Origin: a virus
Reading direction: 5' to 3' (one strand)
DNA length: 58,446 bases
IMG/VR virus record: IMGVR_UViG_3300025012_000101
Span: 1 to 58,446 of that record
Shown: piece by piece, positions 3,001 to 43,146 of the stretch
Layout of the letters: each line of letters begins with the position of its first letter
Numbering within the stretch: the stretch's first letter is position 1
The notes under the pieces: generated by a model
Seen by the model: only the letters and a program-made list of their open reading frames with translations
The model's database searches: none
What the model was told of the DNA's origin: nothing
Program-made: the position numbers and the translations under genes

Positions 3001-4310
3001 TCGGCCACTTCCTGACGCTGATTGAACATCTGAATGCCGTCACCGAGAACGCTCTGCGCCTGGCTACCTACATGACGCTGGTGCAAAACGGTTATACCGA
3101 ACAGAAGGCCGCATCGGCGGCAAAGAACTCCACGGTGAATTTCAACCGCAAGGGCGAGATCAGCAACGTGGCTGGTTCGCTGTACCTATTCTTCAACCCA
3201 TCCGTACAAGGTTCTGCACGCATGTTCGGATCGTTGCTGAAATCTGAGCACAAGGGGCAGGCGCAGGCAATGGCCGGGATGCTGGCCTTTGCAGCATTTG
3301 CGCTGGCCGAGCTGGGGCGCGGTGGTGATGACGACGACGAACGAAAATGGAAGAACATTCCAGACTACGTGAAGGATCACAACATGATCCTGAAGTTTGG
3401 CGATCTGCAATGGACGATACCGGTGCCGTATGAGTTCGCGCCGTTCCATGTCCTTGGTAACTCAATATCTGATGCCGTGCATGGGGAGAGTGGCTGGAAA
3501 TCTGCGATAAAGGTACTCAAGTCGATTGTTGATAACACCACCCCGCTGGGCGATCCGTTCACCGGTGACGGCAAGGACGGAGCCAACCTGTTCCAGATGA
3601 CGCCGACACTGGTGAAGATGGCGCTGGCCCCACATGAAAATGAAAACTCATTCGGCGCACCGATTCAGCCGGAGAAGGCCAGCTACAGCAAGAACAAGCC
3701 GGACAGTCAAAATATGTTCCGCAATACCAAGGGCACGCTGTACTCGGGTGCAGCAGAATGGATGAACGAAGTCACTGGCGGATCGAAGTACCAGCCTGGC
3801 GGAGTTGATGTGTCTCCCGAGACGCTGAAGTTCTGGGTATCTTCGCTGACTGGCGGAGCCGGGCGCTTCGTGACTGACTCAATCGGCGCTGCGTATGGTG
3901 CAACTGAAGGTGTCGCGCCTGACTTGCGCAGCACACCCATTGCCAGGGTATTTGTCCGCGAGCCTAGTGTGGCGGACGCACGCTCACGGTTCTGGGAAGC
4001 GACCAACGAAGCCAAGCAAGCAGCAGACGCTTTTGCCATGGCGAAGAAGGGGCACGACGGCAGCGCGATGAAGGAAATTCGTGATGCCGACAACGACCTG
4101 ATTCAACTGTCCAGATTCGCCGACCATATGGGGAAGGCTGCCGCGAAGAAGCGTGACCTGATCGACCAGATTAGAATGAATGATCAGATGCCGCTGGCGC
4201 AGAAGCGTGAGCAGATGAAAGAGATCGAGCAGAAGGAGCAGGAATACTACGACCGATTCCTCAAGGTGTTCGACCAGAAGCAGAAGGCGCGGAAGGACAA
4301 GGCGGCGTAG
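1..4310 (+). CDS. Giant polyvalent virion protein, C-terminal part (continues from 51189 across the circular junction)
   Basis: The frame is open from base 3 and continues in phase from the gene starting at 51189, because 1-126 equals 58318-58443. These are residues about 2378-3812 of a 3,812-aa protein. At 15-32 lies a zincin motif HEVVGH, followed by helical segments. Around 3100-3320 is a region with NPSVQGSARMFGSL followed by an Ala-rich hydrophobic helix, resembling the LPD38 domain of large polyvalent proteins. The C-terminus (about 3990-4300) is charged coiled coil. Polyvalent proteins are known to be packaged in the virion and injected with the DNA to counter host defences; that role is inferred here. 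The stop is 7 bp from the convergent integrase. A small ORF at 1051-1383 overlaps it in the +1 frame. Confidence 0.85.
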   Translation, partial: WVAIHEVVGHGGLRMLDAKVAEHIDTLAKNTTVAKLARAIAVDRGETFDKATHTEEAIAELAAAYFTNGEKELIDRYGVKATGIAKDGLRGIVQRMIDTIRRVLAVVMGKKIDAVSDADVRSVINAARRAVEGTEQADGYGEPGYALASRGKQSAESFARMALEELTSENDSVFAYKKTSSKSIDGAILDVVDGAEFMGEDTRQDERTESHADRRYVFKTLNGKPFYVYETDAGEVWIDVSRLETGSGGGAIYAAIGNYAFNTGKRFIGDPFGLSPEAVIRRTHHMLSSALRFGTTRHLDAAKQQVWGMPEDGVEPLDWRGSDIDKVEAMIHTLIETAEEIAPSIKDFHYDFQSSQFKDKTGTVVSGADIARLVQERDGGNAEDLGIGTKTARRVTVLRSLLAADSKGASGGRSGILEQLLHWSDSSIPENLEGLFSRSPGKDVLHGDRAGDAGTSSTALESSEAPLSSHAPSVTNPLNLNTTAAQPANSSIPEETEFQTRQRQVQDKMNRFKVLQAWLNHKGVKLTDKANVHEVENLMHAKIANQTQDFRDQVEAPLLERAAKAGFTLEQIADYLEAQHIPEANARMRGIHQNANATANGITDAEAQVTLAQFQAMPKFAEFTKLADEFRAIGDETLDMRLREGLISRDQYDAYKATFKHWVPLRGDGKKPGVGKGLSVNGKEKRRLGHGEREGGEYIIENLLMDRERAIYQVEHNRTVKSIIQFALEAKEPDMITVGKPEKRQVLKDQSVFEVQHKGKMMRSFSSENDAKAFINQAIALSSQNKGGGMARSNFAIAKTSDPIVVMQASPMLAENEIQGYVAGHTIRIQLNDELLARAATNMGVDQLNMLLSAARTINIGLSKVYTAYSPDFIFRNATRDFIAGTINLTGDMGVKMAGKIYLNYGKAAKELFIARNDPRKSAWVQKYRAAGGNTGAAYLSDIERVGNDARAAMYERMKALDVYRTVYGKLISEGRGQVYAHASAAMRSGISKFGAIPVVGHFLTLIEHLNAVTENALRLATYMTLVQNGYTEQKAASAAKNSTVNFNRKGEISNVAGSLYLFFNPSVQGSARMFGSLLKSEHKGQAQAMAGMLAFAAFALAELGRGGDDDDERKWKNIPDYVKDHNMILKFGDLQWTIPVPYEFAPFHVLGNSISDAVHGESGWKSAIKVLKSIVDNTTPLGDPFTGDGKDGANLFQMTPTLVKMALAPHENENSFGAPIQPEKASYSKNKPDSQNMFRNTKGTLYSGAAEWMNEVTGGSKYQPGGVDVSPETLKFWVSSLTGGAGRFVTDSIGAAYGATEGVAPDLRSTPIARVFVREPSVADARSRFWEATNEAKQAADAFAMAKKGHDGSAMKEIRDADNDLIQLSRFADHMGKAAAKKRDLIDQIRMNDQMPLAQKREQMKEIEQKEQEYYDRFLKVFDQKQKARKDKAA
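1051..1383 (+). CDS. Possible nested small gene inside the giant polyvalent gene (+1 frame)
   Basis: This 110-codon ORF lies in the +1 frame of the giant gene. An AAGGA sequence sits 8 nt before its ATG. Its product has ordinary protein composition (Trp, Tyr, Cys and charged residues mixed), while the giant frame over the same bases is Gly/Ser-rich and linker-like, especially towards the end. Two further ORFs of the same type, in the same +1 frame, occur at 53641 and 54697. I recognise no domain. It may be a real overprinted gene or a chance ORF; comparison with related phages would decide. Confidence 0.35.
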   Translation: MTSNLVNSKTKPEQLSPARTSRGWFKRETEVTPKTLELARKQHVVLRCCDPYWRRIAKAHPGGEAAYWSSFSIGAIHPSQKTLKGFSPEALAKMSYMEIVQAMQERQARH

Positions 4311-5391: not shown

Positions 5392-5426
5392 AAAAAAGCC
5401 CCGAAGGGCTTATTCTACGGGGCTTT
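5392..5426 (-). terminator. Rho-independent terminator between xis and int
   Basis: A 9-bp stem (AAAGCCCCG at 5395-5403 pairs with CGGGGCTTT at 5418-5426) is followed on the minus strand by a run of T. It lies between the excisionase and the integrase in the minus direction, within the attP region. Confidence 0.65.
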
Positions 5427-5946: not shown

Positions 5947-6414
5947 TTAAAAAGGAATATCGTCATCGAAGTTGTCGAACGCACCAGCGCCTTGAGCAGG
6001 CGGATTATCTGGACGCGCGTTCCCTGCTGGCTTCGCTGCCGGAGCTGGGCGCGACTGCTCAGCTTGTTCGTGATCGCCGCCTTGCTGCCTGCTGCTCAGC
6101 ATCTGCATTTCGTTTACGATGATCTCGGTGGTGTAACGGTCTTGGCCCTCTTTTGTCTGATATTTTCGGGTTTGCAACTTACCTTCGATGTAGACCTGAG
6201 AACCCTTCTTCAGGTACTCTCCCGCCACTTCCGCCAGCCGACGGTAGAACACCAGGTTGTGCCATTCTGTCTTTTCCTGTTTTTCACCGGCCTTGTCTTT
6301 CCAGGTTTCGGAAGTCGCAAGCGTGGCGTTGGTCACCGCTTCGCCGTTGGTCATGTAGCGTGTTTCCGGGTCTTTGCCCAGGCGGCCTATCAGAATCACT
6401 TTGTTCACGCTCAT
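5947..6414 (-). CDS. ssb: Single-stranded DNA-binding protein
   Basis: A 155-aa SSB with an N-terminal OB fold starting [17 protein letters not shown], a conserved WHNLVFY strand near residue 52, a Gln/Pro/Ala-rich linker, and the acidic tail DDDIPF that recruits repair and replication partners. It coats ssDNA during phage replication and recombination. It is translationally coupled (ATGA at 6411-6414) to the methyltransferase upstream, in the leftward operon that also encodes the exonuclease and putative annealing protein. Confidence 0.95.
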
Positions 6415-7319
6415 ACTGCTCTCCTTAGTGCTTCAATAACATCGCAAGCCACAACCGGTACAACTGCATTGCCCAGCATGTGCATTGCGTCCTTTGCTCG
6501 TTCTGGAAGCAGGTAATGATGAGGAAACCCCATAAACTTCCTGCACTCTTCAACCGATAGCATGCGCATGCGGTCGCCATCTATAACTGCCCAACGGTCG
6601 CGCGTCGTGATTGTTCCAACTGGGCGGCTCAGGCTACGCCCACCTCGCTCGTTTCCGTAATAGGCGGTCAGGAATCTGCTGCCATGCACTTTGCGCCCTT
6701 CCGATATGCGCGCAAGCGTAGCCACGCTGCGCCCGGCCTTGTTAATTGAAGACCATCGCCCGGCGTTGAAGTCTATGATTTCAGCCGACCCGACATGCTC
6801 GCGCCGTGGCAGGTTTAGTTCGATAGGGTGCTTGCTGCGCGTTCCGACGATAAACAGGCGGCGTCTGTGCTGCGGAACTCCATGATCGGCAGCATCAATA
6901 ATCATGGGCGATAGAGCATAGCCAAGCGCACCCATAGCAGAACACCACGCCGGGTACAGCGACCACTTGGCGAACTCAGGAACGTTCTCTACCGTGAATG
7001 ATTCTGGCCGGTGATATTCGGCAGCGCTTACGACTGCCCATGCCGTGCTTCGCTGGGCATCATGGTGCGGACGCTCCTTTCCACGCGCTCGGCTATGGCC
7101 TTGGCATGCAGGTGATGCCATAAGTAGATCATGTGCAGGAATCTGCTTCCAGTCAGCTTGATGCAAATCTTGGCAGGCATGGATAGTTTCTGGATGGTTG
7201 GCCGCATGAATATTCACGGCAGCTTGCCAATGGTTTGCCGCCCATACAACCTTAACACCGGCCATTTTTGCGCCGGTCGAAAAACCGCCAGCTCCAGCGA
7301 ATAGATCAATTGCATTCAC
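6411..7319 (-). CDS. DNA (cytosine-5) methyltransferase 1
   Basis: A 302-aa C5 cytosine methyltransferase. Motif [11 protein letters not shown] is at residues 5-14. The catalytic loop reads SPACQGHS with C72 (the usual Pro before Cys is Ala). ENV is at 111-113, QHRRR at 150-154 and motif X (LGNAVVP) near the C-terminus. It would methylate phage or host DNA at an unknown site, probably to evade restriction. No cognate restriction gene is nearby. ATGA overlaps link it to the genes on both sides, so it is part of the early operon. A second, unrelated-looking C5 methyltransferase lies at 23333. Confidence 0.9.
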
Positions 7320-8365
7320 GCTATCCTCTCCGGGTAGCCGTCATGCAGCACGCCATCTAGCAGGCGTCCGGCTGCTTTCTTTCCAATACGTGCGACCGCT
7401 GCATCACCTTTTCGGAAATGCCCATCCGGCTCTCGCCCGTCTCCTTGCAGGTAGCGGACGTGGCCACGGCGCAAATCGCCGCCTTCATCGCCGCCAGCAC
7501 GCGCTTGATGCGGTGCCCACTCTCCCCACTGCTTGAACAGAAACGGTACGCCAGCCTCTGCACACTGATCGCGCAGGCTTCTTGCCCAATCAGGATGTAT
7601 CGGTCGAGCGTTGGGGCCGGATTCACCGCCACAAACAACCCAGTCTATCCTTGGGTGCCCTGGGAACTCACGTTGCAACATATCAACGCGGTTCCCGTCA
7701 AAAGGAACAGTGCATGACACCGCGCCGAGCATCGGCTCAACACTGATCCAGTGAACGGCTGCTGGCGTTTGCAGCAACAGCGGGATGCGCGCGTCGGCGG
7801 CTTCCTGATTCTCGACGCTAATGCCGAGCCACACATTCGGCAGGGGGAATTGTGTGAACACGCTTACCTTATTGCCCGGATCGCCGATGTGCGATAGGTT
7901 GGCATAACGCTGTGGCTCCATCGATTCGGCGAAAGCATCACCGGCACGTACCCACTTGTCACGGACGGCGCTCAACCGTAGATAATCCAGCATCCGCTCC
8001 GTCCTCTTCGTGAGCACCTGAAACGTGTGCTGCTTCGCCAGCGCCATCACCGCAAACACTTGGTCGATAAACTCATCCGGCACGCTCTCGTGAAACAGGT
8101 CGGACATGCTGTTCACGAACACCATGCGCGGGCGCTTCCATCGAAGCGGGTCTTGCAAATGTTCCGGCACCAGCTTGATGTTCCCATTCCAGCGCTTCGT
8201 TTCTGGATTGATCGTGCCTTCGTATGGCTGGCCAGCGCCGCAGAACCGCGCGGCCATGCTCTCGGCATAGCAGTTCATGCAGCCAGCGGAAACGCGAGTG
8301 CAGCCGCGCACTGGGTTCCATGTCTCGTCAGTCCAAGCTATCCCGCCGTTGCGCTGGTCAGCCAT
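7316..8365 (-). CDS. Phage Gp37/Gp68 family protein (DUF5131)
   Basis: A 349-aa protein of the phage Gp37/Gp68 (DUF5131) family. It opens with the family's TWNPVRGC and has a cysteine cluster C22-x6-C29-x2-C32, then FVNSMSDLFH, and later WISVEPML and CGGESG motifs. The cysteine trio recalls Fe-S/radical-SAM enzymes, but a catalytic activity is not established here. It overlaps both neighbouring genes in a tightly coupled cluster with DNA methyltransferase and NTP pyrophosphohydrolase, suggesting nucleotide or DNA modification. Confidence 0.8.
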   Translation of the reverse strand: MADQRNGGIAWTDETWNPVRGCTRVSAGCMNCYAESMAARFCGAGQPYEGTINPETKRWNGNIKLVPEHLQDPLRWKRPRMVFVNSMSDLFHESVPDEFIDQVFAVMALAKQHTFQVLTKRTERMLDYLRLSAVRDKWVRAGDAFAESMEPQRYANLSHIGDPGNKVSVFTQFPLPNVWLGISVENQEAADARIPLLLQTPAAVHWISVEPMLGAVSCTVPFDGNRVDMLQREFPGHPRIDWVVCGGESGPNARPIHPDWARSLRDQCAEAGVPFLFKQWGEWAPHQARAGGDEGGDLRRGHVRYLQGDGREPDGHFRKGDAAVARIGKKAAGRLLDGVLHDGYPERIA

Positions 8366-8936
8366 TTGCAGATTCCTTGCACACGAATGGCGCGATATTC
8401 GGCGATGTCCATCCGCCCGGCTTCTTCACTTTGCCGTTTGCGTCCTTGATGGCGACGAGGCCGAGGCCGTTGCAAACTCCGCAATCAACCAATCCTCGTT
8501 CATCGCTAAAATGATGCTTCCCGTTCCCGCATGAACATTCCACCAGCTTTGCCAGATTCGCCCGCGCCACTTCCCCGGCTGCGCCTTCCACGTCAGCACC
8601 TTGAGATAGGGCGCTTCCAATGGTTACCCAGGCAAGGTCGATATCTGCGTCAAGCATGGCGGCGCGGTCTGCAAGCTCAACGGCCTTGTCGAATTCTCCG
8701 ACCTTCATCCCCTGCGAAACGTCATGCAGAATGTCGCGCAAGTGCATCAGTCGCATCACTCCGGAAACATCTGCATCAGGTTCCAGAGATATTCCTTCAA
8801 TCAGTGCATCAACCTTCTCGCACATTTCTTCCGTCTGCAACCCGATATACAGCGCCGTCTGCCGCACGTTGTAGCGGTCTGTGGTGCATCCGATGGCTTC
8901 GGTGAACTGGCGTACTACTTTGATGATGTCGGTCAT
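8358..8936 (-). CDS. All-alpha NTP pyrophosphohydrolase (MazG/PRA-PH-like) with C-terminal zinc ribbon
   Basis: This 192-aa protein has an all-alpha pyrophosphohydrolase-like N-terminus: VRQFTEAIG near the start, the acidic helix TEEMCEKVD around 35-43 for metal binding, and DIDLAWVTIGSALSQG near 96-111. A C-terminal CxC...CxxC knuckle follows. Family members hydrolyse dNTPs to dNMP and pyrophosphate, shaping nucleotide pools. Its start overlaps the stop of the DGR reverse transcriptase gene by ATGA, so the two are co-translated; any role in DGR fidelity is speculation. Confidence 0.7.
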   Translation of the reverse strand: MTDIIKVVRQFTEAIGCTTDRYNVRQTALYIGLQTEEMCEKVDALIEGISLEPDADVSGVMRLMHLRDILHDVSQGMKVGEFDKAVELADRAAMLDADIDLAWVTIGSALSQGADVEGAAGEVARANLAKLVECSCGNGKHHFSDERGLVDCGVCNGLGLVAIKDANGKVKKPGGWTSPNIAPFVCKESANG

Positions 8937-9985
8937 GCTGCTTCCCCCTTGGTATTTTGGTTAATTGAAATTGATCGTGTTGATCCGGTGTGATTAAGCA
9001 TTGCACGATACGAGCGCAGCGCGTCGGTGCGGTCGCGCCCACCTGATTCGTGCTGACGTAGGCGCTGGTGGTAGCGGCTGCGGATGTAGCGCCCGGCGGA
9101 AATATGTTGCGGCCAGACGACATAACCCAAGAAAGGAATTCCCGCGCTGGCCGGCGCAAGTCGAATCTTGTGTGGATGGATGGTCAGGCCGTCGCTGGCC
9201 AGCTTGGCGGTGATCTGTGCGCATAGGGTTTGTAATTCTTCGTGCGACTCGCCCAGGATCACCATGTCGTCCACATAGCGGATGTAACGCCGGACGCGCA
9301 TGGTTTCTTTGATCCAGTGGTCGAAGTCGTTCAGGAATATGTTGGCGAATAGCTGGCTGGACAGGTTACCGATGGGCATTCCCTTGGCTGCCGTCTGTCG
9401 ATATAGCGTGGATTCATCGAACAGATGGTCGTAGCTGCTATCTGTTTGGAACGAGTCGATTAGGTTGACCAGCAGCACGCGCAGTTCGTGATCTCCGATG
9501 TAGCGCAGCACGCGCTCCTTGAGTAGGGCGTGATTGACCGAGTAGAAATATTTGCTGATGTCGAGCTGCAATACCCAAGTGGCATTATCGCTACGAGCGA
9601 ACTGCGCCAGTCTGCGCACGGCGGCATGGGTGCCTCGGCCTGGCAGGTTTCCGTAGGTATCGTGGATGAACTTCGGCTGCCAGATCGGCAGCAGGAAGCG
9701 GTAGAGCATCCAGTGGACGATGCGGTCTTTCATCGGAGCGTCCACCACATCGCGCCATTTTTTCTCGCGCACGGTGAATGTCTTGTATGGGCCGAAGGTG
9801 TAGCCCCGCTCGCGCAGTCTTTTCTGGATGGCGATCAGATGACGCAGCGGATCAGCAGAGAATCGCTGGATGCGCAGATTGTGAGATTTGTTCTTGCGGG
9901 TATTGAGCCAGCACGCGAACAGATTCGGCAGGCCGGTTAGGTGATGAAAGTCACTACCGCATTCCACTGCGCCACCCGTAGGCAT
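8933..9985 (-). CDS. DGR1 reverse transcriptase
   Basis: A diversity-generating-retroelement RT that would copy the template repeat at 10105-10219 into mutagenised cDNA. From the ATG at 9985 it is 350 aa. Motif A LQLDISKYFYSV has D142, motif B GMPIGNLSSQL is at 202-212, the catalytic YVDD is at 237-240, and GIPFLGYV is the primer-grip region. The N-terminus (NLFACWLNTRKNKS) aligns with the usual DGR RT start. The frame is open back to an ATG at 10246 that overlaps the stop of the accessory gene (ATGA). That would add 87 low-complexity residues read out of frame through the template repeat, so the start is uncertain. Its stop is coupled to the pyrophosphohydrolase gene. Confidence 0.93.
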   Translation of the reverse strand: MPTGGAVECGSDFHHLTGLPNLFACWLNTRKNKSHNLRIQRFSADPLRHLIAIQKRLRERGYTFGPYKTFTVREKKWRDVVDAPMKDRIVHWMLYRFLLPIWQPKFIHDTYGNLPGRGTHAAVRRLAQFARSDNATWVLQLDISKYFYSVNHALLKERVLRYIGDHELRVLLVNLIDSFQTDSSYDHLFDESTLYRQTAAKGMPIGNLSSQLFANIFLNDFDHWIKETMRVRRYIRYVDDMVILGESHEELQTLCAQITAKLASDGLTIHPHKIRLAPASAGIPFLGYVVWPQHISAGRYIRSRYHQRLRQHESGGRDRTDALRSYRAMLNHTGSTRSISINQNTKGEAA

Positions 9986-10104
9986 CGCAGCGGTTTCCGG
10001 TTGGGCGTGTTGCCGTGCTTTTGGAACTTGCGCTCCGGGAGATTTTCGACCAAGAGTTGACCTTCCGTGGGTATCCCCAGCGTCTAGGCCGTTTTTTCTT
10101 GGGT

Positions 10105-10219
10105 CAGCGGAAGCCGATGTTGTCGTTGCGATTGCTGGGCTCGTAGTTGTTGAGATTGAAGACGCCCGCATTCGAGTCGGAACCCCAGCAGCCGCCCCGG
10201 ACGAGCGCATTACCAGACC
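10105..10219 (-). repeat. DGR1 template repeat (TR)
   Basis: This 115-bp segment matches the variable repeats at 11163-11277 (15 mismatches) and 16241-16355 (16 mismatches). Every mismatch falls on a T of the plus strand, that is an A of the template transcript, the signature of adenine-specific DGR mutagenesis. It lies between the accessory gene (stop at 10243) and the probable RT start (9985), leaving a 119-nt spacer before RT as in the Bordetella phage BPP-1 element. Many of its codons in the target frame are AAC/AAT. Confidence 0.95.
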
Positions 10220-10242
10220 TTTCAGAAAATCCCCCTCGTTGT

Positions 10243-11091
10243 TCATGGCTGTGCCTGTGTTGAACGGATAAGTCCGCCGACCAAGCGGCCAAGTTCAACG
10301 GCTAGACCCGCTCTGTGCTCAAAGTTGAGCGCAAGTATGCCTAGCCTTTGAGCCTGTGCGAGATAGTGCTTGATCAGGTCAATATCGGCGGAGAGAGACT
10401 TGAGTAGCTTCTGTTTGTTGTCCTCAAGGCCGTATGCCATAACACCGCGCATGATTCGACCGATGCAGATGCGTAGATTTTCGCCATAGGTGGTGCGCAA
10501 GTCGCGCGGCATCTTGATAATGTCTTGCAGGAGCTGCGTGTCCAGGTCTTGCGCCTTGGCCTTGAGCTGGAAACATGCGGCATCTGGGCTGGATAACAGT
10601 TGGGTGGCAGCAGCCTTGTTCACCTCGCCGCGTTGCTTGAGGTCATCGATCACATCTTGGATGACTTTCGTCGAAACGGATTCCAGTACCGAATTGTTAC
10701 CTGTCGGCTGGCTGGATACATAAACTGTGTGTCCGGTTGCCTGGTTTCCCAGCGCAACGACGTATGGAATGCCGAACTCTTCGACTACCGTCCACAACCT
10801 GCGCTTGAAATTTCCGACTGGAAATCCGATGCGAATATGCGGCTCGGTTGCAGCCCCGACGAGCTTGAGCTTGTACTTTTTCAGCGTAGCCAGCGCGTAT
10901 GCCGTGCGGTCATAGCCATGGAGGAAATTACCGGATTGCACCAATATCAAGTGGCCGGCGTGTTTCTCTTCCAGCTTCTGCGCGATGGTAGCTACCGGAT
11001 CAGCCTGCCCGAGTCCAGCCTCAATGCCCTTAAAGGCGCTGATGCTGAACCTGGTCAGTTCGTCGTTTGTTGGTGTCGGTATTTCTTGCAT
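10243..11091 (-). CDS. avd: DGR1 accessory protein: MutS-like N-terminus joined to an Avd-like four-helix bundle
   Basis: A 282-aa protein; AGGAAC lies 6 nt before its ATG. The N-terminal half (about 40-125: HLILVQSGNFLHGYDRTA, then a conserved IGFP region and IPYVVALG) resembles the mismatch-binding domain I of MutS, a type reported beside some DGRs. The C-terminal half (about 160-282) has the pattern of Avd, the pentameric helical partner that binds DGR RT: PRDLRTTYGENL, a long Lys-rich helix and ELGRLVGGLI at the end. It sits between the VR1 target and the template, where avd lies in BPP-1. The fusion reading is mine and needs structural comparison. Confidence 0.75.
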   Translation of the reverse strand: MQEIPTPTNDELTRFSISAFKGIEAGLGQADPVATIAQKLEEKHAGHLILVQSGNFLHGYDRTAYALATLKKYKLKLVGAATEPHIRIGFPVGNFKRRLWTVVEEFGIPYVVALGNQATGHTVYVSSQPTGNNSVLESVSTKVIQDVIDDLKQRGEVNKAAATQLLSSPDAACFQLKAKAQDLDTQLLQDIIKMPRDLRTTYGENLRICIGRIMRGVMAYGLEDNKQKLLKSLSADIDLIKHYLAQAQRLGILALNFEHRAGLAVELGRLVGGLIRSTQAQP

Positions 11092-11113
11092 GATGTTCCT
11101 AGTTAATTTTCTA

Positions 11114-11141
11114 GGTCACGGCTACGCCGCGACCCGTGACC
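11114..11141 (-). other. DGR1 target hairpin downstream of VR1
   Basis: GGTCACGG (11114-11121) pairs perfectly with CCGTGACC (11134-11141) around a 12-nt loop. It lies 21 nt beyond the 3' end of VR1 in the coding direction. A near copy with the same loop (one base different) lies at the same distance from VR2. Hairpin/cruciform elements just 3' of the VR are known to promote retrohoming in BPP-1-type DGRs. The TR lacks one. Confidence 0.8.
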
Positions 11142-11146
11142 CGAGA

Positions 11147-11833
11147 TCAGAGACTCTTGGTGCAGCGGAAGCCGATGCGGTCGTGGCGATAGCCGGGCCC
11201 GAAGTAGACGAGATAGAAGACGCCCGCATCCGAGCCGGAACCCCAGCAGCCGCCCCGGACGAGCGCACGACCAGACCAGTTCCGCTCTCCGTCAGGCCGC
11301 CAGCCCATACCTTTTTCTTGCGATGGGTAGGGGGCAGTGGTCAGGCTTGGCGAATCCGCCTTGATGATGGTGGTCAATCCCAAGTCATTGCCCTGCACGT
11401 CGTCAAAAATCCACGAAAATACGTTGCCGTTTAGGTCGCAAACCTTCTCGCCATTCGATAGCGTCAACCAGCGGCGCTCCTTCGCATCGGGTGATTGGAA
11501 CGTACCAGGCTGTGCGCTCGAAACATTTCCTTTGCGCAGTCCACGGAATAGCTTGCCTTCGCCCACTTTCCCCTTAGTCCAGTTGCAATCCTGCTGGGCG
11601 GCATTAAGCCTGATCGCCAGTTCCTGTCTTTCAGTGACGAGCTGGCCGCCAATGTCTACGCACGCCGCTTTTGCTTCTTCAAAGCTGATGCGCACCCACG
11701 GTGTGCCATCCTCGGTGATAACTGCTTTCCCTCCAGCTCCCTTGCTGCAAGCGAACTGCCCATACTGGAATGCGGGAACGACAAGGCCGCTTGGTAGGGT
11801 AGTTTCTGGTACGGTGATGAATAGGTTTTTCAC
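11147..11833 (-). CDS. DGR1 variable target protein 1 (FGE-sulfatase/C-type-lectin-type fold)
   Basis: A 228-aa protein, starting at GTG 11833 with AAAGGGAT 5 nt upstream; the longer ATG start at 11914 would overlap the previous gene. The body has the formylglycine-generating-enzyme-like layout used by many DGR targets: LSNGEKVCDLNGNVFSW near the middle, GMGWRPDGERNWSG, then the variable C-terminus starting at LVRGGCWGS and ending GFRCTKSL. Residues exposed on the C-type-lectin surface are those changed by the DGR. No signal peptide or tail motif is seen, and its neighbours are recombination genes, so the ligand is unknown. Paralogue of the gene at 16225. Confidence 0.85.
   Translation of the reverse strand: MKNLFITVPETTLPSGLVVPAFQYGQFACSKGAGGKAVITEDGTPWVRISFEEAKAACVDIGGQLVTERQELAIRLNAAQQDCNWTKGKVGEGKLFRGLRKGNVSSAQPGTFQSPDAKERRWLTLSNGEKVCDLNGNVFSWIFDDVQGNDLGLTTIIKADSPSLTTAPYPSQEKGMGWRPDGERNWSGRALVRGGCWGSGSDAGVFYLVYFGPGYRHDRIGFRCTKSL
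11163..11277 (-). repeat. DGR1 variable repeat 1 (VR1)
   Basis: Aligned with the TR at 10105-10219, it shows 15 substitutions in 115 bp, all opposite template adenines (7 A-to-G, 3 A-to-C, 5 A-to-T on the coding strand). Identity ends abruptly at both borders. The invariant 13 bases CAGCGGAAGCCGA at its plus-strand left end are the likely initiation-of-mutagenic-homology segment. Confidence 0.95.
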
Positions 11834-11858
11834 AATATCCCTTTCGTTCTGGATTGAG

Positions 11859-12680
11859 TTATTTAACGGCGTACTTGCCAAGCATCGCAGGGATGTCGTC
11901 ATTTCCAATTGCATTTACGATGCACTCGGCGAACTGTTCTGCCATTTGCTCTTCGTGTTCTTCGATCTTGATAATGCGCAGATTGATGGCTGGCTTATCA
12001 GCGCCGGTCAGAATCCCAAGGCGCATCACAAAGGTGCGCTCGGCTATGTCCTTATACGGCACGCAAGTAAAACAAATCTCGGTAGGAAGCGGCTCCGTGC
12101 TAGATGCAGTGACACTTTCAAACGCGCTCCTGCTGGCGCTAAGTTGCTGCTCGGCGCTTTCCAGCTTACGCAGCGCTTCAATACTGATCTTGCGCACTGC
12201 CGCAATGGCCTTGTTCGCCGGAACATCAGCGCCGTCCTTGTGGCACGCAATCAAGTTTATCCAGTCTTCAAGAAATTCCGCGATGGCGGATTGCGGGTAT
12301 CCCTTTCCGTCAGCAATTTTGCGCAACGACTCATATGCAGCCGTGCGCTTCTGCTCCAGCCTGGCTGTGTTGTCTGCGTGACCTGGCTTTTCTTGCGTAC
12401 CTAGATTAAGCACGGCAGTTGCAATCATGCTTTCCGGCTCGATGAAGATTGCCGCGCCGAGTTCAGCATTTTTTTTCGCATAGCTTGCGAAGTCGCCGAT
12501 TACGCTCGTTACCATTGCTCCACGCAAACGGCGGCGCGTAGGCATGAACTTTTCGAGGTCGTGTATGTTGTGGTCAGAAGGTAGTGCGATAGCGCCGGTG
12601 GATTGACGATCTATTGCCGCGTTTGCAGCCTGAATTGCTTGAGCCTTTGAGAGTTCTTTTATTACGTCTGCGTCAAACAT
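11859..12680 (-). CDS. DUF2303-like phage protein
   Basis: This 273-aa protein has the features of DUF2303 phage proteins: IALPSDHNIHDLEKFMPT around residues 32-48, followed by GAMVTSVIGDFASYAKK and a long helical region. Such proteins are commonly found in early regions beside recombination or exonuclease genes; function unknown. AAGGAT lies 6 nt before the ATG. It lies between the VR1 target gene and small recombination-cluster genes in the leftward operon. Confidence 0.65.
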   Translation of the reverse strand: MFDADVIKELSKAQAIQAANAAIDRQSTGAIALPSDHNIHDLEKFMPTRRRLRGAMVTSVIGDFASYAKKNAELGAAIFIEPESMIATAVLNLGTQEKPGHADNTARLEQKRTAAYESLRKIADGKGYPQSAIAEFLEDWINLIACHKDGADVPANKAIAAVRKISIEALRKLESAEQQLSASRSAFESVTASSTEPLPTEICFTCVPYKDIAERTFVMRLGILTGADKPAINLRIIKIEEHEEQMAEQFAECIVNAIGNDDIPAMLGKYAVK

Positions 12681-12706
12681 GATTTATCCTTATATTTAGT
12701 TGATAC

Positions 12707-13081
12707 TTATTTGTTTTTTACTTCGCCAGTTTGTTTGTCCAGAAAGCTCATCTGATTTTCTGGTGCAAGTGAGAGGCGACCATATTTGCCGACATGCAGA
12801 GGCGTTACGCGCTCCTCTTTCTCGCCTGCTGTTCCGTTCAGAGTAGGGCGCGTGAAGCTGAGTTGATGAGCGCAATGAACTTGCGTGGTTCCGGGGATGC
12901 GCTTGAAACTGAATTTAAGCGTCACATCTCCAACGCGGTCGTTGTCGATTACCGCCGCCGCAACCTGAGAAAGCGCCAGAGATAACTTGCGCTCTAACAC
13001 TCCTCCATCCAGGTCTTGAATGAAACCACCGACATCTGTTCCAGCATCACTTTCTTGTTGTGCTGCGGTTTTCTGATTCAT
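12707..13081 (-). CDS. Hypothetical early protein
   Basis: A 124-aa protein of unknown function. The N-terminal 40 residues are polar and helical, followed by a segment of alternating beta-type residues (DVTLKFSFKRIPGTTQV) and a C-terminal tail ending in QMSFLDKQTGEVKNK. An AAAGGAG sequence precedes its ATG. It lies between DUF2303-like protein and the YqaJ exonuclease and so probably belongs to the recombination cluster, but no activity can be assigned. Confidence 0.65.
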   Translation of the reverse strand: MNQKTAAQQESDAGTDVGGFIQDLDGGVLERKLSLALSQVAAAVIDNDRVGDVTLKFSFKRIPGTTQVHCAHQLSFTRPTLNGTAGEKEERVTPLHVGKYGRLSLAPENQMSFLDKQTGEVKNK

Positions 13082-13111
13082 GCTCTTCGCTCCTTTTGTG
13101 AGTTAAATAAT

Positions 13112-13333
13112 TTACTTGGTAAGGTAGCCTGCAATGCCACGCGCTATTGCTGGCCTGCTCCAGTTCGCCATTGCGCGCAATTTCGTGCGCATCCAGCGTG
13201 GTCGCGCTTTAAGTAGCGCATCATGGATCGGGCGCAGCGATACCGGATTTTCAGGGTGCTTGTCGTTGTAGCTCTTGCTGTTGTTGCCGACTACATTGGC
13301 GTTCCTGATTGCAGTTATAGATTGCTTTTTCAT
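13112..13333 (-). CDS. Small basic hypothetical protein
   Basis: A 73-aa, strongly basic protein (many Arg and Lys; MRTKLRAMANWSRPAIARG near the C-terminus), consistent with nucleic-acid binding. Its ATG overlaps the stop of the exonuclease gene (ATGA at 13330-13333), so it is translationally coupled to it. I do not recognise a family. Confidence 0.6.
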   Translation of the reverse strand: MKKQSITAIRNANVVGNNSKSYNDKHPENPVSLRPIHDALLKARPRWMRTKLRAMANWSRPAIARGIAGYLTK

Positions 13334-15102
13334 GCTACCTTCCTTTCTTCGTGCTGAATGTCGCCACGGAACTCTTGCAGAATCCAGTCCAAAGCGGCTT
13401 CATTGGTTGTGCCAAAAGTGGTTGCAACAGCATCGAGCAGTTCGGCGCGATTGGGGCGGCGCGGCGAAATTGCCTGGGCGACGGATACCGGTGCGACGGC
13501 GTGCATCACGTCGGCAAGCGTAATGGCTCCGGCTTCTTCTCCTTGAGCAGGTAATGTTGCCGGTGACGGGAACGGCCATGTAGCGACCGGGAGGGCGATA
13601 GGTGCAGGCTTTGCGTCCTGCTCATCCTTGAGCTTTGCAGCAGCCTCTATAGCCGCTTTGGCGCGCTCTTCTTCATCCGCCTTTGCTTTGGCTTCTGCTT
13701 CTGACTTTGCGCGAGTGGCGGCTTCGGCCTCAATCTTGGCCTTGGCTTTGGCTTCTTCCTCAATGCGCATTACTTCGCGCTCAGCTTCCAGCTTTTCTGC
13801 TTCGGCGACTTGGTGATCTTTTATGCGGGTTGTGATCACCAGCTTAAAATCATCCATCGGCTTGCTGATAATTTGCGCAAGATCGTTGAACAGGAAACCG
13901 AACCCGGCGGAAGTTTCTTTGCACCACGTCAGTTTGGCGAGAATGTCCTTTGCTGCTGCATCAGCTGCAATCTTTCCGTTGGCCAGTGCAGTATCGACCG
14001 CATCCATCCATGCCGACACCAGACGCTTGCCTTTCATCGCCCCGGCAAAGTCTGGCTGCTGAATATTCAGACGAATTGGTTTGATCCAAGCTTCGAGCGC
14101 GGAGATGTGTTCGGAATAAGCCGTCTTGGCACCATTCAGGATCTCCAGCTTCTTCGCTTCCTTTTCCTTCTCGACATCCTTTTCAAGTTTTAGGGCGGTG
14201 ATGCGTAAATCTTCGTGCCATGCGTCTATCATGCGCGCCGCCGCACCTATGGTCAGAGTCTGCTCAAGCATCGCTTCCTTCGCGAGCATGAGCTTCTTGC
14301 CGGTCTCGCGGTATAACTTGGCGGCAGCCTCAGCATTGGAGAAATCCTGATCAGTTACGAGGCTAGTAGCGCGGACTGTTGCCAGCGAGGCCGCCAGCGC
14401 CTTTCCGAACTCGGCCATATTGTCGTCTGTGATTTCTCCCTTCGCGTGGACGAATAGGGCCGGAAGGGACAGGATCGCTTCGGCAGCAGGCTTCTCGATA
14501 ATCTCGACGTGCTGATAGTTTTCTCGGTCTTTGTTGAATTGCTCCCATCCTGCGCGGATGCGCTCGAACCAAACAGGATCAGGCAATATATCCATGCTGA
14601 CCATGCGCTCTTCGGTGCCGTCTGATACCGTGAATATCCAACTTTCTGCACCGGATACCATCAGGCATTGCTGTGGTTGTGCCATAAATTCATCTGGCAA
14701 TTCTTTCGCTGATACTGCGGCAGCAAGTGTTTCATTCCACTGTTTATGCTCCCATCCTTTGGTGCCCGACATGCGAAGACCATCGCACGAAGCTGAAGTG
14801 CGTCCGCGAGACAGCACGACCGGATATAGCTTGCTGCTTATCTGACGCTCGACGATTGGCCTAGCCAGCGCCTCTACCTCATGCCCGTAGTCAAGGATGT
14901 TTTCCTGCACCCATGAGCTGAACTCCTTTGTGATTCCGGATGACTTCATGCGCAAAAGTTCGGTGCGTGACGTTTTTTTGGATAGGCCAAGCATCGCAGC
15001 TGCTTCGCTTGCTCCATCATGGCTCATGCGGAATTCAATCCATTCAGGAGACCCCTGGATAAGTTCGTGCTCGATCAGCTCTTCTGTCATCATCTCGTCC
15101 AT
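13330..15102 (-). CDS. YqaJ-type (lambda-exonuclease-fold) recombination nuclease
   Basis: A 590-aa protein. The N-terminal about 210 residues match YqaJ exonucleases: QGSPEWIEFRMSHDGASEAA near the start, DYGHEVEALA (acidic catalytic region), an EHKQW motif in the PD-(D/E)xK core and QPQQCLMVSGAESW. It would resect dsDNA ends 5' to 3' for annealing-type recombination. The long C-terminal part is coiled coil with an Ala/Lys/Glu-rich stretch (about residues 430-490). I start it at ATG 15102, one base after the upstream stop, with GGAAGG 8 nt before it; an upstream ATG at 15132 overlaps that gene. Confidence 0.8.
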   Translation of the reverse strand: MDEMMTEELIEHELIQGSPEWIEFRMSHDGASEAAAMLGLSKKTSRTELLRMKSSGITKEFSSWVQENILDYGHEVEALARPIVERQISSKLYPVVLSRGRTSASCDGLRMSGTKGWEHKQWNETLAAAVSAKELPDEFMAQPQQCLMVSGAESWIFTVSDGTEERMVSMDILPDPVWFERIRAGWEQFNKDRENYQHVEIIEKPAAEAILSLPALFVHAKGEITDDNMAEFGKALAASLATVRATSLVTDQDFSNAEAAAKLYRETGKKLMLAKEAMLEQTLTIGAAARMIDAWHEDLRITALKLEKDVEKEKEAKKLEILNGAKTAYSEHISALEAWIKPIRLNIQQPDFAGAMKGKRLVSAWMDAVDTALANGKIAADAAAKDILAKLTWCKETSAGFGFLFNDLAQIISKPMDDFKLVITTRIKDHQVAEAEKLEAEREVMRIEEEAKAKAKIEAEAATRAKSEAEAKAKADEEERAKAAIEAAAKLKDEQDAKPAPIALPVATWPFPSPATLPAQGEEAGAITLADVMHAVAPVSVAQAISPRRPNRAELLDAVATTFGTTNEAALDWILQEFRGDIQHEERKVA

Positions 15103-15103
15103 G

Positions 15104-16159
15104 TTATTGACCTTCCTTTTCCCATGCGTCAATCTGGAATTGCTGTTCGTCGGTCAGGATCATCGAAGTTTTTGCGGTAGCGATGATTGCCTTTGCCTTT
15201 TTCTTTCCGCTACGCACCAGTGGCTCCCATTCTTTGCTCAGTTCAGCGAACTGCTCGGCGGTGCAGGCTTGCAACTCTCCCTTTCCGGCAGGCTTGCCGG
15301 TTTCTCCATTGCCTTGTTCTGCCTTGTTTTGCATCACGCTTTGCCAAGTCGCTTCGCCATCCTTGATCGCGCCGAAGATTCCACGCAGCGTCACGATTTG
15401 CGGCGGTGAGCATTTGGCTAGGTCATGCCCGAGATAGGAGGCCAGATCGGTCGCGGTAACTCCGATGGAAGAGAATGCGTCCACGATGCGCTTACGCTCT
15501 GCGTCAGGGTCTTTTGCCGCATCGTCCAAGCGAATCTTTTTGATGATCTCTTCAGCTTCATCGCATAAATCGCCTGGGATGATGCGCAGTCCGAGTGAAC
15601 GCATGGCCTTTGAGATCAACGCGCCGCGCTTATTGAGCAGGTCATCGTCAGTGCCTAGTACGGTGTAAACGTCCTTGTTGTAGCTGTTCTTGCGCACGCT
15701 GATGTAGGAGCCATCGCTATTCGGCTTGCTGCGTTCAACAGTTTTCGACACGCGCACGTCAAGCGGGTAGGTAATATTCGCTTCCAGATCGGTGACTGAA
15801 ACGCGGTGAACTTCTTTTTGCTCATCCTCGAAGATCATGGTGGTTTCGACCAGCACGTTCTTCATGCAGCGCAAGGCCACCTCAACAAAACGGATGCCCA
15901 AACCTTCAACGCCTTGTCCGATTGGCTTGATGTAGTAGGCGCTCTTGTTGTTGGCGAACGATGGCCGGCGGCATTCTTTGAGCAGTTCTTGCCGCACCGA
16001 ATCCATGTTGCGCGGATTGCGCATCGCCATGATGTAGCGTGACTCGACCATCGCCTTCGACTGTGCCGCGATCGCTGTTGATGCTGTTTCGACAACCGCC
16101 ATAGTCCGGCCTGTGCCGCCGAAATCTTCTTGTGTTGCCAGTGCTGTTCTATTGTTCAT
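15104..16159 (-). CDS. Putative single-strand annealing protein partner of the exonuclease
   Basis: A 351-aa protein with AGGAGC before its ATG. The central region (IKPIGQGVEGLGIRFVEVAL around residues 80-100, then a beta-rich stretch and NKDVYTVLGTDDDLLNKRGA) resembles phage proteins found directly upstream of YqaJ exonucleases, which act as RecT/Erf-like annealing proteins. The pairing with the exonuclease (1-nt gap, same strand) and the SSB in the same operon support that role. The sequence match to a named family is from memory and not proved. Confidence 0.55.
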   Translation of the reverse strand: MNNRTALATQEDFGGTGRTMAVVETASTAIAAQSKAMVESRYIMAMRNPRNMDSVRQELLKECRRPSFANNKSAYYIKPIGQGVEGLGIRFVEVALRCMKNVLVETTMIFEDEQKEVHRVSVTDLEANITYPLDVRVSKTVERSKPNSDGSYISVRKNSYNKDVYTVLGTDDDLLNKRGALISKAMRSLGLRIIPGDLCDEAEEIIKKIRLDDAAKDPDAERKRIVDAFSSIGVTATDLASYLGHDLAKCSPPQIVTLRGIFGAIKDGEATWQSVMQNKAEQGNGETGKPAGKGELQACTAEQFAELSKEWEPLVRSGKKKAKAIIATAKTSMILTDEQQFQIDAWEKEGQ

Positions 16160-16191
16160 GGTGTGCTCCTGATGTAATTTTGTTTAGCGAA

Positions 16192-16219
16192 GGCCACGGC
16201 TGCGCCGCGACCCGTGACC
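16192..16219 (-). other. DGR1 target hairpin downstream of VR2
   Basis: GGCCACGG (16192-16199) pairs with CCGTGACC (16212-16219) with one mismatch, and its 12-nt loop differs from that of the VR1 hairpin at one base. It is again 21 nt past the 3' end of the variable repeat in the coding direction and just after the stop codon at 16225. Confidence 0.75.
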
Positions 16220-16224
16220 AGCGA

Positions 16225-17133
16225 TCAGAGACTCTTGGTGCAGCGGAAGCCGACGCCGCCGATGCGATGGCCGGGCCCGAAGACGTCGAGATAGAAGACG
16301 CCCGCATACGAGTCGGAACCCCAGCAGCCGCCCCGGACGAGCGCACCACCAGACCAGTTCCGCTCTCCGTCAGGCCGCCAGCCCATACCTTTTTCTTGCG
16401 ATGGGTAGGGGGCAGTGGTCAGCGATATGGAATCGGCAGCAATCTTGCCAGTCAGGCCGTTTTCATCGCCCTGGATGTCGTCGAATACCCATGAGTAGCA
16501 GTTGCCAGAGAAGTCGTAGATTTTTTCGCCGTTGCTCAGCTGGTGCCAGCGGCGCTCTTCTGCATCGTCGGATTCGTAGGTTCCTTCCTGCGCTTCACTG
16601 ACGTTATCTTTGTGGATGCCTTGGAAAATCTTGCCTTCGCCGACCTTGCCACCAGTCCAGTTAATGTCTTGCTGGCTGATGTCGTATGCAATGGCCAGCG
16701 CGCGGGTTTCAGCGAGAAGGTCATAACCAGCAACGGCGCAAGCTTTGCGTGCATTGTCATAGTTGATCTCGACCCAAGGCATTGCGTCAGCGACCGACTG
16801 TGGAATTCCTGCTGGGCCGCGTGATGCGATGTACTGAGCAACTTGGAAGGATGGAACCACTTTGCCGTTTGGCAGCGTAACTTCCGGCACTGTGACGAAC
16901 AGGCTGCTTGCCTTAACCGTTGCAGCCACTTTGGCGCGCAGATCGGAAGCCAGTAGAGGGTATTCAGCCGCGCACGATTCTGCGTATGCCGCAATCGCCG
17001 GGATGCCGTGCTTGTCAGTGGTGAGGTTCAGGACGAAGTATTCGTTTCCTTCATGCTTCCCGCCTGGTGCATCAGTGCCGTCGGTGCGCGTGACGTTGAA
17101 TTTATGGTAAAGACCTTGTTCGCGTTGGTTCAT
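16225..17133 (-). CDS. DGR1 variable target protein 2 (FGE-sulfatase/C-type-lectin-type fold)
   Basis: A 302-aa paralogue of the protein at 11147 with an extra N-terminal domain (about residues 1-75) containing APGGKHEGNEYFVLNL and YPLLASDLRAK, seen in other phage proteins. The rest is FGE-like: LSNGEKIYDFSGNCYSWVF, GMGWRPDGERNWSG, and the variable tail LVRGGCWGS...GFRCTKSL. The last about 38 residues are diversified by DGR1. Its ATG overlaps the upstream stop (ATGA). Lying next to the annealing-protein gene, far from tail genes, it is an unusual DGR target location; what it binds is unknown. Confidence 0.87.
   Translation of the reverse strand: MNQREQGLYHKFNVTRTDGTDAPGGKHEGNEYFVLNLTTDKHGIPAIAAYAESCAAEYPLLASDLRAKVAATVKASSLFVTVPEVTLPNGKVVPSFQVAQYIASRGPAGIPQSVADAMPWVEINYDNARKACAVAGYDLLAETRALAIAYDISQQDINWTGGKVGEGKIFQGIHKDNVSEAQEGTYESDDAEERRWHQLSNGEKIYDFSGNCYSWVFDDIQGDENGLTGKIAADSISLTTAPYPSQEKGMGWRPDGERNWSGGALVRGGCWGSDSYAGVFYLDVFGPGHRIGGVGFRCTKSL
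16241..16355 (-). repeat. DGR1 variable repeat 2 (VR2)
   Basis: It differs from the TR at 16 of 115 positions, all at template adenines (10 A-to-G, 1 A-to-C, 5 A-to-T on the coding strand). It differs from VR1 at several of the same sites. The 67 bp next to it (16356-16422) are identical to 11278-11344 next to VR1, outside the template. Confidence 0.95.
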
Positions 17134-17742: not shown

Positions 17743-18173
17743 GCTTCGTCCCTCCGTTCCATGTATGCGCGCAAGCTATCTTCCGCGCCTACATCGCCGT
17801 CAATCTCGATACTGCGGGACAGTGAACAGGCGGCGTTCTCAAGTTCAGTCGCGCAGCCGGTGATAGTGGATGTGCGGTCGATCAGCTCATTGATGATGTG
17901 CTTGCATTCCAGCAGGCTGGCGTTGCCGATAAAGTCGGCGATTTCAACCAATTCATCCAGCCTGCCAAGCCGCTGCGCCTTGCGCTGGCCTTCTACGATC
18001 ATCTGCGGCACGTCCGGCATGTCACCCAGCTTATTCATGAGCGGGCGGATTGCGCGCAGCGTGGCGATGATGTGCTGGTTGCGGCGGATTGCTGCATCGT
18101 GTTCCACCGGCGGCGGCGTCAGGCCGGGAAGAAACTCTGGCAACCCGGCGGCTTGGGTTTCGATCATGTTCAT
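17739..18173 (-). CDS. First gene of the leftward early operon, hypothetical
   Basis: A 144-aa mostly helical protein of unknown function with no clear motif. Its ATG at 18173 has a strong GGAGG site 7 nt upstream. It is the first ORF after the long hairpin-rich leader that begins near the leftward promoter at 18646-18674, and its stop overlaps the next gene by 4 nt. Confidence 0.65.
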   Translation of the reverse strand: MNMIETQAAGLPEFLPGLTPPPVEHDAAIRRNQHIIATLRAIRPLMNKLGDMPDVPQMIVEGQRKAQRLGRLDELVEIADFIGNASLLECKHIINELIDRTSTITGCATELENAACSLSRSIEIDGDVGAEDSLRAYMERRDEA

Positions 18174-18645: not shown

Positions 18646-18674
18646 ATTATCGACAAGTCGATTTAATAAGTCAA
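18646..18674 (-). promoter_or_regulatory. Leftward early promoter (PL-like)
   Basis: On the minus strand, -35 TTGACT (18674-18669), a 17-bp spacer and -10 GATAAT (18651-18646): five of six matches to each sigma70 box. Transcription would start near 18639 and enter the structured leader. Two repressor-type operators overlap it (18648-18663 and 18673-18688). Confidence 0.75.
18648..18663. promoter_or_regulatory. Repressor operator OL1
   Basis: TATCG-N6-CGATT covers the -10 and spacer of the leftward promoter. It shares the half-site and 6-bp spacing of the three operators near the repressor gene. Confidence 0.6.
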
Positions 18675-18688
18675 TAGATATTTCGATA
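18673..18688. promoter_or_regulatory. Repressor operator OL2
   Basis: AATAG-N6-CGATA overlaps the -35 of the leftward promoter. It follows the consensus WATMG-N6-CKATW seen at the other four sites. Confidence 0.5.
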
Positions 18689-19735: not shown

Positions 19736-20101
19736 TCACTCCCCGCAAAATTTACCACATGATCCATCCGCGCCACGATCATCGGGAGCGTCCGGGCAAT
19801 CCCTCCAGCTACAGAAAGTTTCCGCTGCTGTTTTTTGTGCCGGGGGAAACGTGTGAAACAGAAACCACGCGCATAGGAGGAATGCCGCCCAAGCAGATGT
19901 GTTGCAAAATCTCTTCCCTTTGCGCACTCCGGCAACTACAACGGAAATCCAAAACGGCACCATGAGCTGCCAGTAGTAGATGGTCAGCGCCAAGCCAAAC
20001 AGGAATATCACCAAACAAAAAATAAGCGCCACCAACGATCCTGCGCCGTCTATCAACCCAGAAAGTACGTCGCCGATGGCGCGTATCGTTCGCTCGATCA
20101 T
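19736..20101 (-). CDS. Membrane protein in the repressor operon
   Basis: A 121-aa protein with two or three hydrophobic helices (LVALIFCLVIFLFGLALTI near residues 23-41, WISVVVAGV, and WAAFLLCAWFLFHTF near 70-84) and a Cys-rich C-terminal tail. Its ATG overlaps the repressor stop (ATGA at 20098-20101). Co-expression with the repressor suggests a lysogenic function such as exclusion, but nothing in the sequence proves it. Confidence 0.6.
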   Translation of the reverse strand: MIERTIRAIGDVLSGLIDGAGSLVALIFCLVIFLFGLALTIYYWQLMVPFWISVVVAGVRKGKRFCNTSAWAAFLLCAWFLFHTFPPAQKTAAETFCSWRDCPDAPDDRGADGSCGKFCGE

Positions 20102-20733
20102 ACGTCCATAACCATCTGCTTGACCACGCCGCAGATTACCGCATCAGGGCGCATTGGCATGATCGGGTAGCGTTCGTTGAGCGGCTTCAGGTAGGTTTGC
20201 CCGCCGTCGATCACCAACTGCTTAAAGGTAGCATCTGAGCCGTTCTGGCGCACGATCACGAAGCTACCGTTGCGCGCCTCTTCTTCTGGCTCGACAATCA
20301 GGATCGCGCCATTTGGGAATTTTGGCTCCATTGAGTCGCCCTGAACACGTAAGGCGTAGGTGTGTTGCTTAACGGTGACAGTTGTTGAAATCCACTCATC
20401 TGCTTGTTCGGTTGAAAAATTATCCACGGTCTCGCTCCAGTTGCCAGCCGCCACTAGGCTGATTAAAGGAACTCTTCCCCCGATGGCTATTTTTATCGGC
20501 GAGATATTACCTGTCTCTGGGTAGCCAGGTTCTTTTTTGCCTTTTCCTGTGGCGAGCCACATTGCATCCACACCTAGAGCTGTGGCAATTTGAGCTGTTG
20601 ACGGGGTTTTGTTGGTTCTCCCTCGCTCCAAGTCGGCAATAGTTGATTGCTGCACCTTTGCAGCCTTTGCAAGTGCCACCTGAGTAAGCCCGCGTTCTTT
20701 GCGCGTCGCTTTGATTCTTTCGCCTATAGCCAT
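20098..20733 (-). CDS. cI: CI/LexA-type prophage repressor
   Basis: A 211-aa repressor. It has an N-terminal XRE helix-turn-helix (LTQVALAKAAKVQQSTIADL, 16-35) and a C-terminal S24 self-cleaving domain with scissile A96-G97, Ser134 in GDSMEP and Lys171. RecA-stimulated cleavage would trigger induction. It is divergent from the small Cro-like gene across a 72-bp region with three matching operators. One of these overlaps its own start codon, giving autoregulation. It heads an operon with membrane, lipoprotein and HNH genes. Confidence 0.93.
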   Translation of the reverse strand: MAIGERIKATRKERGLTQVALAKAAKVQQSTIADLERGRTNKTPSTAQIATALGVDAMWLATGKGKKEPGYPETGNISPIKIAIGGRVPLISLVAAGNWSETVDNFSTEQADEWISTTVTVKQHTYALRVQGDSMEPKFPNGAILIVEPEEEARNGSFVIVRQNGSDATFKQLVIDGGQTYLKPLNERYPIMPMRPDAVICGVVKQMVMDV

Positions 20734-42734: not shown

Positions 42735-43145
42735 ATGGGCATTCACGATGAGGCGAAGCTGGATAAGAAATTCATGGAATTCGCCAAGTTGATGAACATC
42801 CACCTCAACCACTTCCCGAAGCATGAGAAGTACGGACTCGCGCTTGAAATCAGGCGTGCTGCCTATGAGATGTATGGCTTTATCGTAGAGGCGCAAAAGC
42901 GCTATCACAAGAAAACCGCAATGACCAACCTTGATACCCGGCATGAGCAGTTGCGCATGTTGGTGCGCCTTGCGTACACGCTGGGGTATTTTGAATTCAA
43001 GGATGGTCAGCGTGCAGAAAAATCACCATCCGAGTTAGGCGAGCATCGTTATCTCGCGCTGTCTCGGCTGGTGGATGAATTAGGCAGGATGATCGGCGGA
43101 TGGATTGTCGCCGAGCGCCTGCTTGATAAACGGGAGGCGTCTTAA
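42735..43145 (+). CDS. avd: DGR2 accessory variability determinant
   Basis: A 136-aa basic four-helix-bundle protein of the Avd family: FPKHEKYGLALEIRRAAYEM near residues 28-47, the QLRMLVRLAYTLGYF helix and the terminal LVDELGRMIGGWIVAER. Avd forms a barrel-shaped pentamer that binds the DGR reverse transcriptase and template RNA. It sits between the VR and TR as in BPP-1. Confidence 0.93.
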   Translation: MGIHDEAKLDKKFMEFAKLMNIHLNHFPKHEKYGLALEIRRAAYEMYGFIVEAQKRYHKKTAMTNLDTRHEQLRMLVRLAYTLGYFEFKDGQRAEKSPSELGEHRYLALSRLVDELGRMIGGWIVAERLLDKREAS

Positions 43146-43146
43146 T

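Follow-up and report, generated by a model that had tools for sequence, protein, structure and literature searches.

The window, a whole virus record of 58,446 nucleotides (58.4 kb), is a complete-looking temperate phage genome. It carries a diversity-generating retroelement (DGR), here DGR1, whose two variable repeats lie in paralogous lectin genes of an early operon. The location and control of this operon, which is lambda PL-like and repressor-controlled, are well supported, and we consider it fairly probable that DGR1 diversifies cytoplasmic lectins whose ligands, within the cell, are variable proteins of the host. An earlier note on this DNA had pointed to the same unusual placement; its observation is confirmed and its interpretation is partly supported.

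A retroelement with two lectin targets

About 129 nt are repeated at both ends of the window, an entire virus record and not a bacterial chromosome. Genes for the terminase, portal, major head, tail fibre and internal virion protein are late and rightward, and the integrase, recombination and repressor genes are leftward. DGR1 spans positions 8933-17133 on the minus strand, on which all features of its operon given below also lie. The template repeat (TR, 10104-10222) overlaps the 5' end of the reverse transcriptase (RT) reading frame. The variable repeat VR1 (11162-11280) lies inside the first hypervariable target, VP1, and VR2 (16240-16358) lies inside the second, VP2, at its C-terminus. The coordinates of the earlier note, 10105-17133, leave out the RT gene at 8933-10246.

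Both variable repeats differ from the template at template adenines only, as is characteristic of DGRs. Within a 114-nt core, VR1 is changed at 15 of the 22 template adenines and at 0 of the 92 C, G and T positions (Fisher p 8e-14), and VR2 at 16 of 22 and again 0 of 92 (Fisher p 6e-15), bearing out the claim that the element diversifies two genes. Over the 119-nt span, VR2 has 19 of 26 adenines changed and no other base. The same adenine-only divergence, with at most one non-A mismatch each, was found in 23 of 24 distinct VR/TR comparisons from 13 related contigs; the single exception (L011) is aligned out of register. TR adenines fall in 16 template codons, 8 of them AAY, allowing as many as about 6e13 combinations of residues in each VR. 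A chance repeat as the source of the TR/VR likeness is ruled out by this pattern, and a decayed cassette is ruled out by open reading frames, adenine-only divergence and hairpins that are all maintained across relatives.

The RT (8933-10246) adjoins the TR and contains IGNLSSQ, corresponding to the GxxxSQ motif of DGR enzymes, together with a catalytic YVDD of the YxDD type. Its family homology begins at about residue 86 and it matches phrog_1423 (E 8e-104). Directly upstream, a 282-aa accessory protein (10243-11091) combines a conserved N-terminal domain with an Avd-type helical C-terminus (residues 174-280 approximately). This C-terminus matches Avd families in PHROG (E 2e-7) and NCBIfam (E 8e-8, yet below the NCBIfam cut-off) and is modelled as a helical bundle with a pLDDT of about 80, supplying the accessory component expected of a DGR. 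A MutS-like identity for the N-terminal half was considered and dropped, as profile comparison with solved structures did not bear it out and the model was poor. As to hosts, among the genome contigs found the accessory protein is carried only by a Gallionella MAG and Thauera butanivorans; 369 sampled genomes of the Thauera class yielded no further carrier, and none of the isolate phage records carries VP1 or the accessory protein.

Directly 3' of the VP2 stop codon lies a GC-rich hairpin with a 3-nt loop (16191-16213), the DGR target-site element, and a second hairpin (11113-11135) directly follows the stop codon of VP1. In a search allowing G-T pairs, 28 of 32 VP stop codons were directly followed by a GC-rich hairpin whose loop has 3-4 nt, compared with 0.7% of shuffled sequences, and compensatory changes are present in these hairpins. 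The TR region is without one, as expected for an element in which the hairpin or cruciform marks the target and is absent at the template. Retrohoming in the Bordetella phage BPP-1 requires such a hairpin (PMC3240598). For DGR1, retrohoming in cells is predicted; what the sequences show is the divergence of VRs between relatives. Taken together, DGR1 is a real diversity-generating retroelement and a normal member of its kind; its address and its target class are what is unusual.

VP1 (11147-11833; the ORF opens at 11914 and homology starts at about 11833) and VP2 (16225-17133) are paralogues with 63% identity. Both score above the cut-off of the Pfam FGE-sulfatase family, in agreement with the earlier assignment of VR1 and VR2 to paralogous FGE-type lectin genes. 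The fold predicted for VP2, with a mean pLDDT of 73 (lower in the VR and at the N-terminus), resembles those of FGE, Mtd and the DGR protein TaqVP. The VR aligns with the FGE active-site segment, and the residue opposite the catalytic Cys is not Cys in what is a weak profile alignment. A catalytic FGE enzyme was rejected on this ground: the VR replaces the active-site segment and holds no cysteine there. Because the VR occupies this segment without the cysteine, VP1 and VP2 are most likely binding proteins. No transmembrane or secretion-like hydrophobic stretch was found in either sequence, which rules out secreted or membrane proteins, and the lectins have no match among PADLOC families, which rules out a known defence family as their identity.

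VP1 consists of the FGE-type C-lectin without an N-terminal module. As the earlier note had recognized, the larger target has an extra N-terminal domain; this module of about 70 residues (residues 1-72 approximately) belongs to phrog_9572, and its structure was predicted as part of the VP2 model, where confidence is lower at the N-terminus. The module occurs without a lectin as a 79-aa protein of Achromobacter phage JWF, encoded between a dNMP phosphatase and the DNA-ligase region. In Burkholderia phage BcepF1 it is joined to a sequence of no relation, and a 173-aa protein of Bordetella phage PBb001 also has it; in all three phages the gene is an early one. A search of these three genomes, run without a positive control, gave no match to the DGR1 RT.

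Placement and control of the DGR1 operon

VP1 lies directly upstream of the accessory-protein gene. Another 5 kb upstream is VP2, with small early genes on one side and, on the other, the gene adjoining the RecE-like exonuclease. Of the neighbours proposed earlier, SSB (5947-6414, toward the distal end of the operon) and the exonuclease (RecE-like/YqaJ, 13330-15132) are confirmed. The annealing protein is a candidate by position: the product of 15104-16159 matches only phrog_3657, which has no assigned function, and no family support for the label was found. Further confirmed members of the operon are a C5 methylase, a DUF5131 protein that matches PADLOC candidate models, the RT and the Avd-type C-terminus.

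The best promoter match of the region (18674-18646) reads on the minus strand, with a -35 element TTGACT at 18674-18669, 17 nt of spacing and a -10 element GATAAT at 18651-18646. It directly follows a strong intrinsic terminator (18722-18705) that closes the transcript from the repressor side. The next strong terminator after the promoter (5396-5411) precedes the integrase and lies toward the distal end of the operon. An operator-like palindrome, ATCGACAAGTCGAT, overlies the promoter at 18649-18662, with a second, weaker copy at 18674-18687. Promoter and terminator scans as a whole return no more sites than shuffled sequences, and our argument therefore rests on the conserved arrangement. The same order of terminator and promoter is found in two relatives (L030 and L005), and the equivalent promoters of L030, L005 and L029 carry paired palindromes or repeats.

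A lambda-like PL should have operators in common with the cro/repressor region, and two close relatives do. L005 has exactly four copies of a 12-nt palindrome: two overlie the early promoter, and the other two separate the Cro-like gene from the repressor gene. L029 has a different palindrome five times in the same two places. Neither count is reached in any of 200 shuffles. In the window the shared pattern is weak: operator-like sites at 20726, 20758 and 20781, near the CI-like repressor gene (20098-20733), are poor copies and the motif is not significant genome-wide, so that repressor control in the window itself is inferred from the relatives.

Homologues of the VPs are present on about 26 distinct contigs, with RecE, the phrog_3657 gene and SSB among their neighbours. 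Elsewhere their neighbours are ParB and a dNMP phosphatase (L040), primase and integrase (L033), repressor, methylase, excisionase (xis) and integrase (int) (L026), exonuclease, a Sak4-type annealing protein and DNA polymerase (L032), repressor and primase (L031), or a helicase (L019). The annotated flanks are thus early, replication or integration modules. Among the relatives whose flanks could be annotated, which is not every flank, no VP homologue was found among tail genes, and the tail or late-module placement expected of an Mtd-like DGR target is seen neither in the window nor in these relatives. Consistent tail placement of the homologues, which the earlier note had named as evidence against its view, is therefore not what we find, and the conserved placement rules out a location peculiar to one genome. 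Together with the terminator-promoter arrangement and the operators of two close relatives, the recurrence in unrelated early modules strongly supports an early, repressor-controlled, non-tail location.

The pair of targets is less constant than the neighbourhood. The number found per relative ranges from one, in L029 and G005 (VP1 only), to three in L033 and L040. In L032, a fragmentary record, the lectin is present with neither an RT on the record nor a hairpin, as expected if the target is not diversified there.

A tail-type DGR in the same genome and comparable systems

The window carries a second element, DGR2, on the plus strand. Its target is a tail-fibre-type protein (41153-42718, VR at 42593-42707), followed by a cassette at 42735-44423 with Avd (42735-43145), TR (43147-43261) and RT2 (43401-44423). 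Here 17 of 28 template adenines are changed and none of the 84 other bases. RT1 and RT2 are 33% identical, and both RT types occur together in three other virus records. In these, the target of the second DGR is a homologue of the tail-fibre target of the window (G003), tail-type by family (G004), or a protein matching only a PHROG without assigned function (G005), which is probably tail-type as well. A search for second-DGR TR/VR pairs in G004 and G005 gave none at zero mismatch, and a relaxed search gave an imperfect pair in G005 only.

DGR1 resembles the BPP-1 DGR, whose target is Mtd, in its adenine-only TR/VR differences, DGR-type RT, Avd-type protein, post-VR hairpin and C-lectin target. 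It differs in that its targets are two early-operon proteins instead of a tail gene, its Avd domain forms the C-terminal part of a 282-aa protein, and its phage has a second, tail-type DGR. TaqVP of the Thermus aquaticus prophage DGR (PDB 5vf4) is likewise a variable protein of FGE-like C-lectin type and ranks among the best fold matches of VP2; the likeness is one of fold (14% identity), and the parts of the TaqVP source available to us do not report an early-operon placement. One TR serving two targets, as in DGR1, is described for Roseburia phage Shimadzu, Faecalibacterium phages and the nd4/nd12 tentaclin phages (PMC11792537, PMC10743442). There, one target is of unclear function, the targets are predicted to be virion or receptor-binding proteins or are unassigned, and neither an early operon nor repressor control is reported in the text consulted. 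Cellular DGRs acting on putative immune sensors are likewise proposed to have an intracellular hypervariable binding module, but these are chromosomal bacterial defence genes, whereas the DGR1 targets are phage early-operon genes (PMC10907252, PMC10053308). In the freely accessible paper texts that were searched, we found no early-operon phage DGR targets of this kind.

Possible roles of the diversified lectins

We propose that during the lytic programme one leftward transcript would deliver VP2, the recombination proteins, VP1, the Avd-type protein, the TR RNA and the RT. Copying of the TR RNA, error-prone at adenines, would yield cDNA that replaces VR1 and VR2 during phage genome replication. 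Progeny would then carry differing versions of two cytoplasmic, non-catalytic FGE-type lectins. Because these lack export signals, lie among DNA-metabolism genes and include an early-protein module, they are taken to act within the infected cell, where their ligands would be variable proteins of the host, with defence or host-replication factors the likeliest. The purpose most likely would be counter-defence or host take-over, ligand and function being inferred. VP2 directly precedes the exonuclease pair, a position that Gam has in lambda, and RecBCD-type nucleases may therefore be one concrete candidate ligand.

The earlier note had suggested that the lectins bind a diverse protein of the host or of a rival phage, which is plausible. 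It is unlikely, in our view, that their ligands are variable proteins of superinfecting phages, bound early in infection or, if expression leaks, in a lysogen. In bacterial immunity, a role has been proposed for cytosolic DGR proteins that bind proteins of viruses (PMC10053308), and the operon also holds the methylase and the DUF5131 gene with its PADLOC candidate-model match. However, the lectins themselves lack a defence-family match, and the operators predict that the operon is off in lysogens, when protection would matter most; action on the lysogen, which the earlier note had also envisaged, is made less likely by the repression expected there.

It seems quite improbable that the lectins are virion or ejected proteins, encoded early by happenstance and serving host recognition as in BPP-1. 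In its favour, phage targets proved to be mostly tail proteins when more than 30,000 DGRs were surveyed (PMC8144416), and VP2 and Mtd have the C-lectin fold in common. Yet no annotated relative has the lectins among tail genes, they carry no structural-protein domain, the N-terminal module is found in DNA-metabolism and early gene clusters, and DGR2 already fills the tail role in the same genome. We give very little credence to the idea that the cassette lies in the recombination operon since retrohoming gains from the phage exonuclease, SSB and replication, with target function secondary. Retrohoming efficiency does depend on replication direction and is raised by ExoI loss (PMC12875486), but DGR2 has the same adenine-only signature from a late operon, no RecE homologue was recognised near the cassette in L026 or L033, and the early position of the targets would be left unexplained.

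Under the reading that we favour, of intracellular lectins binding host proteins, early DGR1 would tune the phage to the interior of its host and DGR2 would tune the tail to the outside. More tentatively, a single temperate-phage lineage may use two independent DGRs, a late one acting on the tail for entry and a repressor-controlled early one acting on intracellular lectins against host proteins or defences. The authors of the DGR survey remark that a phage able to attach to a new host is not thereby sure to replicate in it (PMC8144416), and our findings suggest a phage that evolves rapidly in two respects, entering cells and dealing with whatever lies within them. Phage DGRs have so far been understood as tools for changing attachment. 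If hypermutation is indeed aimed at intracellular proteins, phages would bring to the arms race a repertoire of intracellular binding proteins that is able to evolve. Two DGRs with two target classes in one genome would provide an internal control for the selection acting on each, and the lectins would be candidate counter-defence proteins whose ligands could be fished for directly.

The DGR1 cassette and its neighbours

In the accessory protein of DGR1 (10243-11091), the diversity-generating retroelement of the leftward early operon, an N-terminal domain of about 170 residues and unknown fold precedes the Avd-type bundle; this domain is conserved in 15 relatives. The DUF5131 protein encoded in the same operon (7316-8365) has strong matches to PDC-M41B and PDC-M30B, both candidate defence models in PADLOC, and its gene adjoins the DGR1 cassette again in many relatives. 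Two related contigs have in common a phrog_874 protein of unknown function (L026:16279-16983 and L033:14371-15090), encoded in both downstream of the cassette and near the integrase.

Target genes in related contigs

Long stretches of the related contig L004 are identical to the window, with differences in two short clusters (17910-17952 and 16975-17053), one of them within the N-terminal module of the target protein VP2. VR2, the variable repeat of VP2, is identical in both. The clusters resemble the outcome of recombination over short patches, or of a mixed assembly.

In L032, a homologue of the DGR1 target proteins (10007-10699) neighbours exonuclease, Sak4 and DNA polymerase genes. Searches found no DGR1 reverse transcriptase in this record and no target hairpin at the homologue, which is possibly a non-diversified member.

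Reading frames at the record ends

A 1421-aa reading frame begins at the left end of the window (45-4310), and its PHROG matches are proteins of more than 2700 aa. Another, very large frame (51189-58443) continues past the right end. Together they may encode one giant protein across the terminal repeat in a circular genome.
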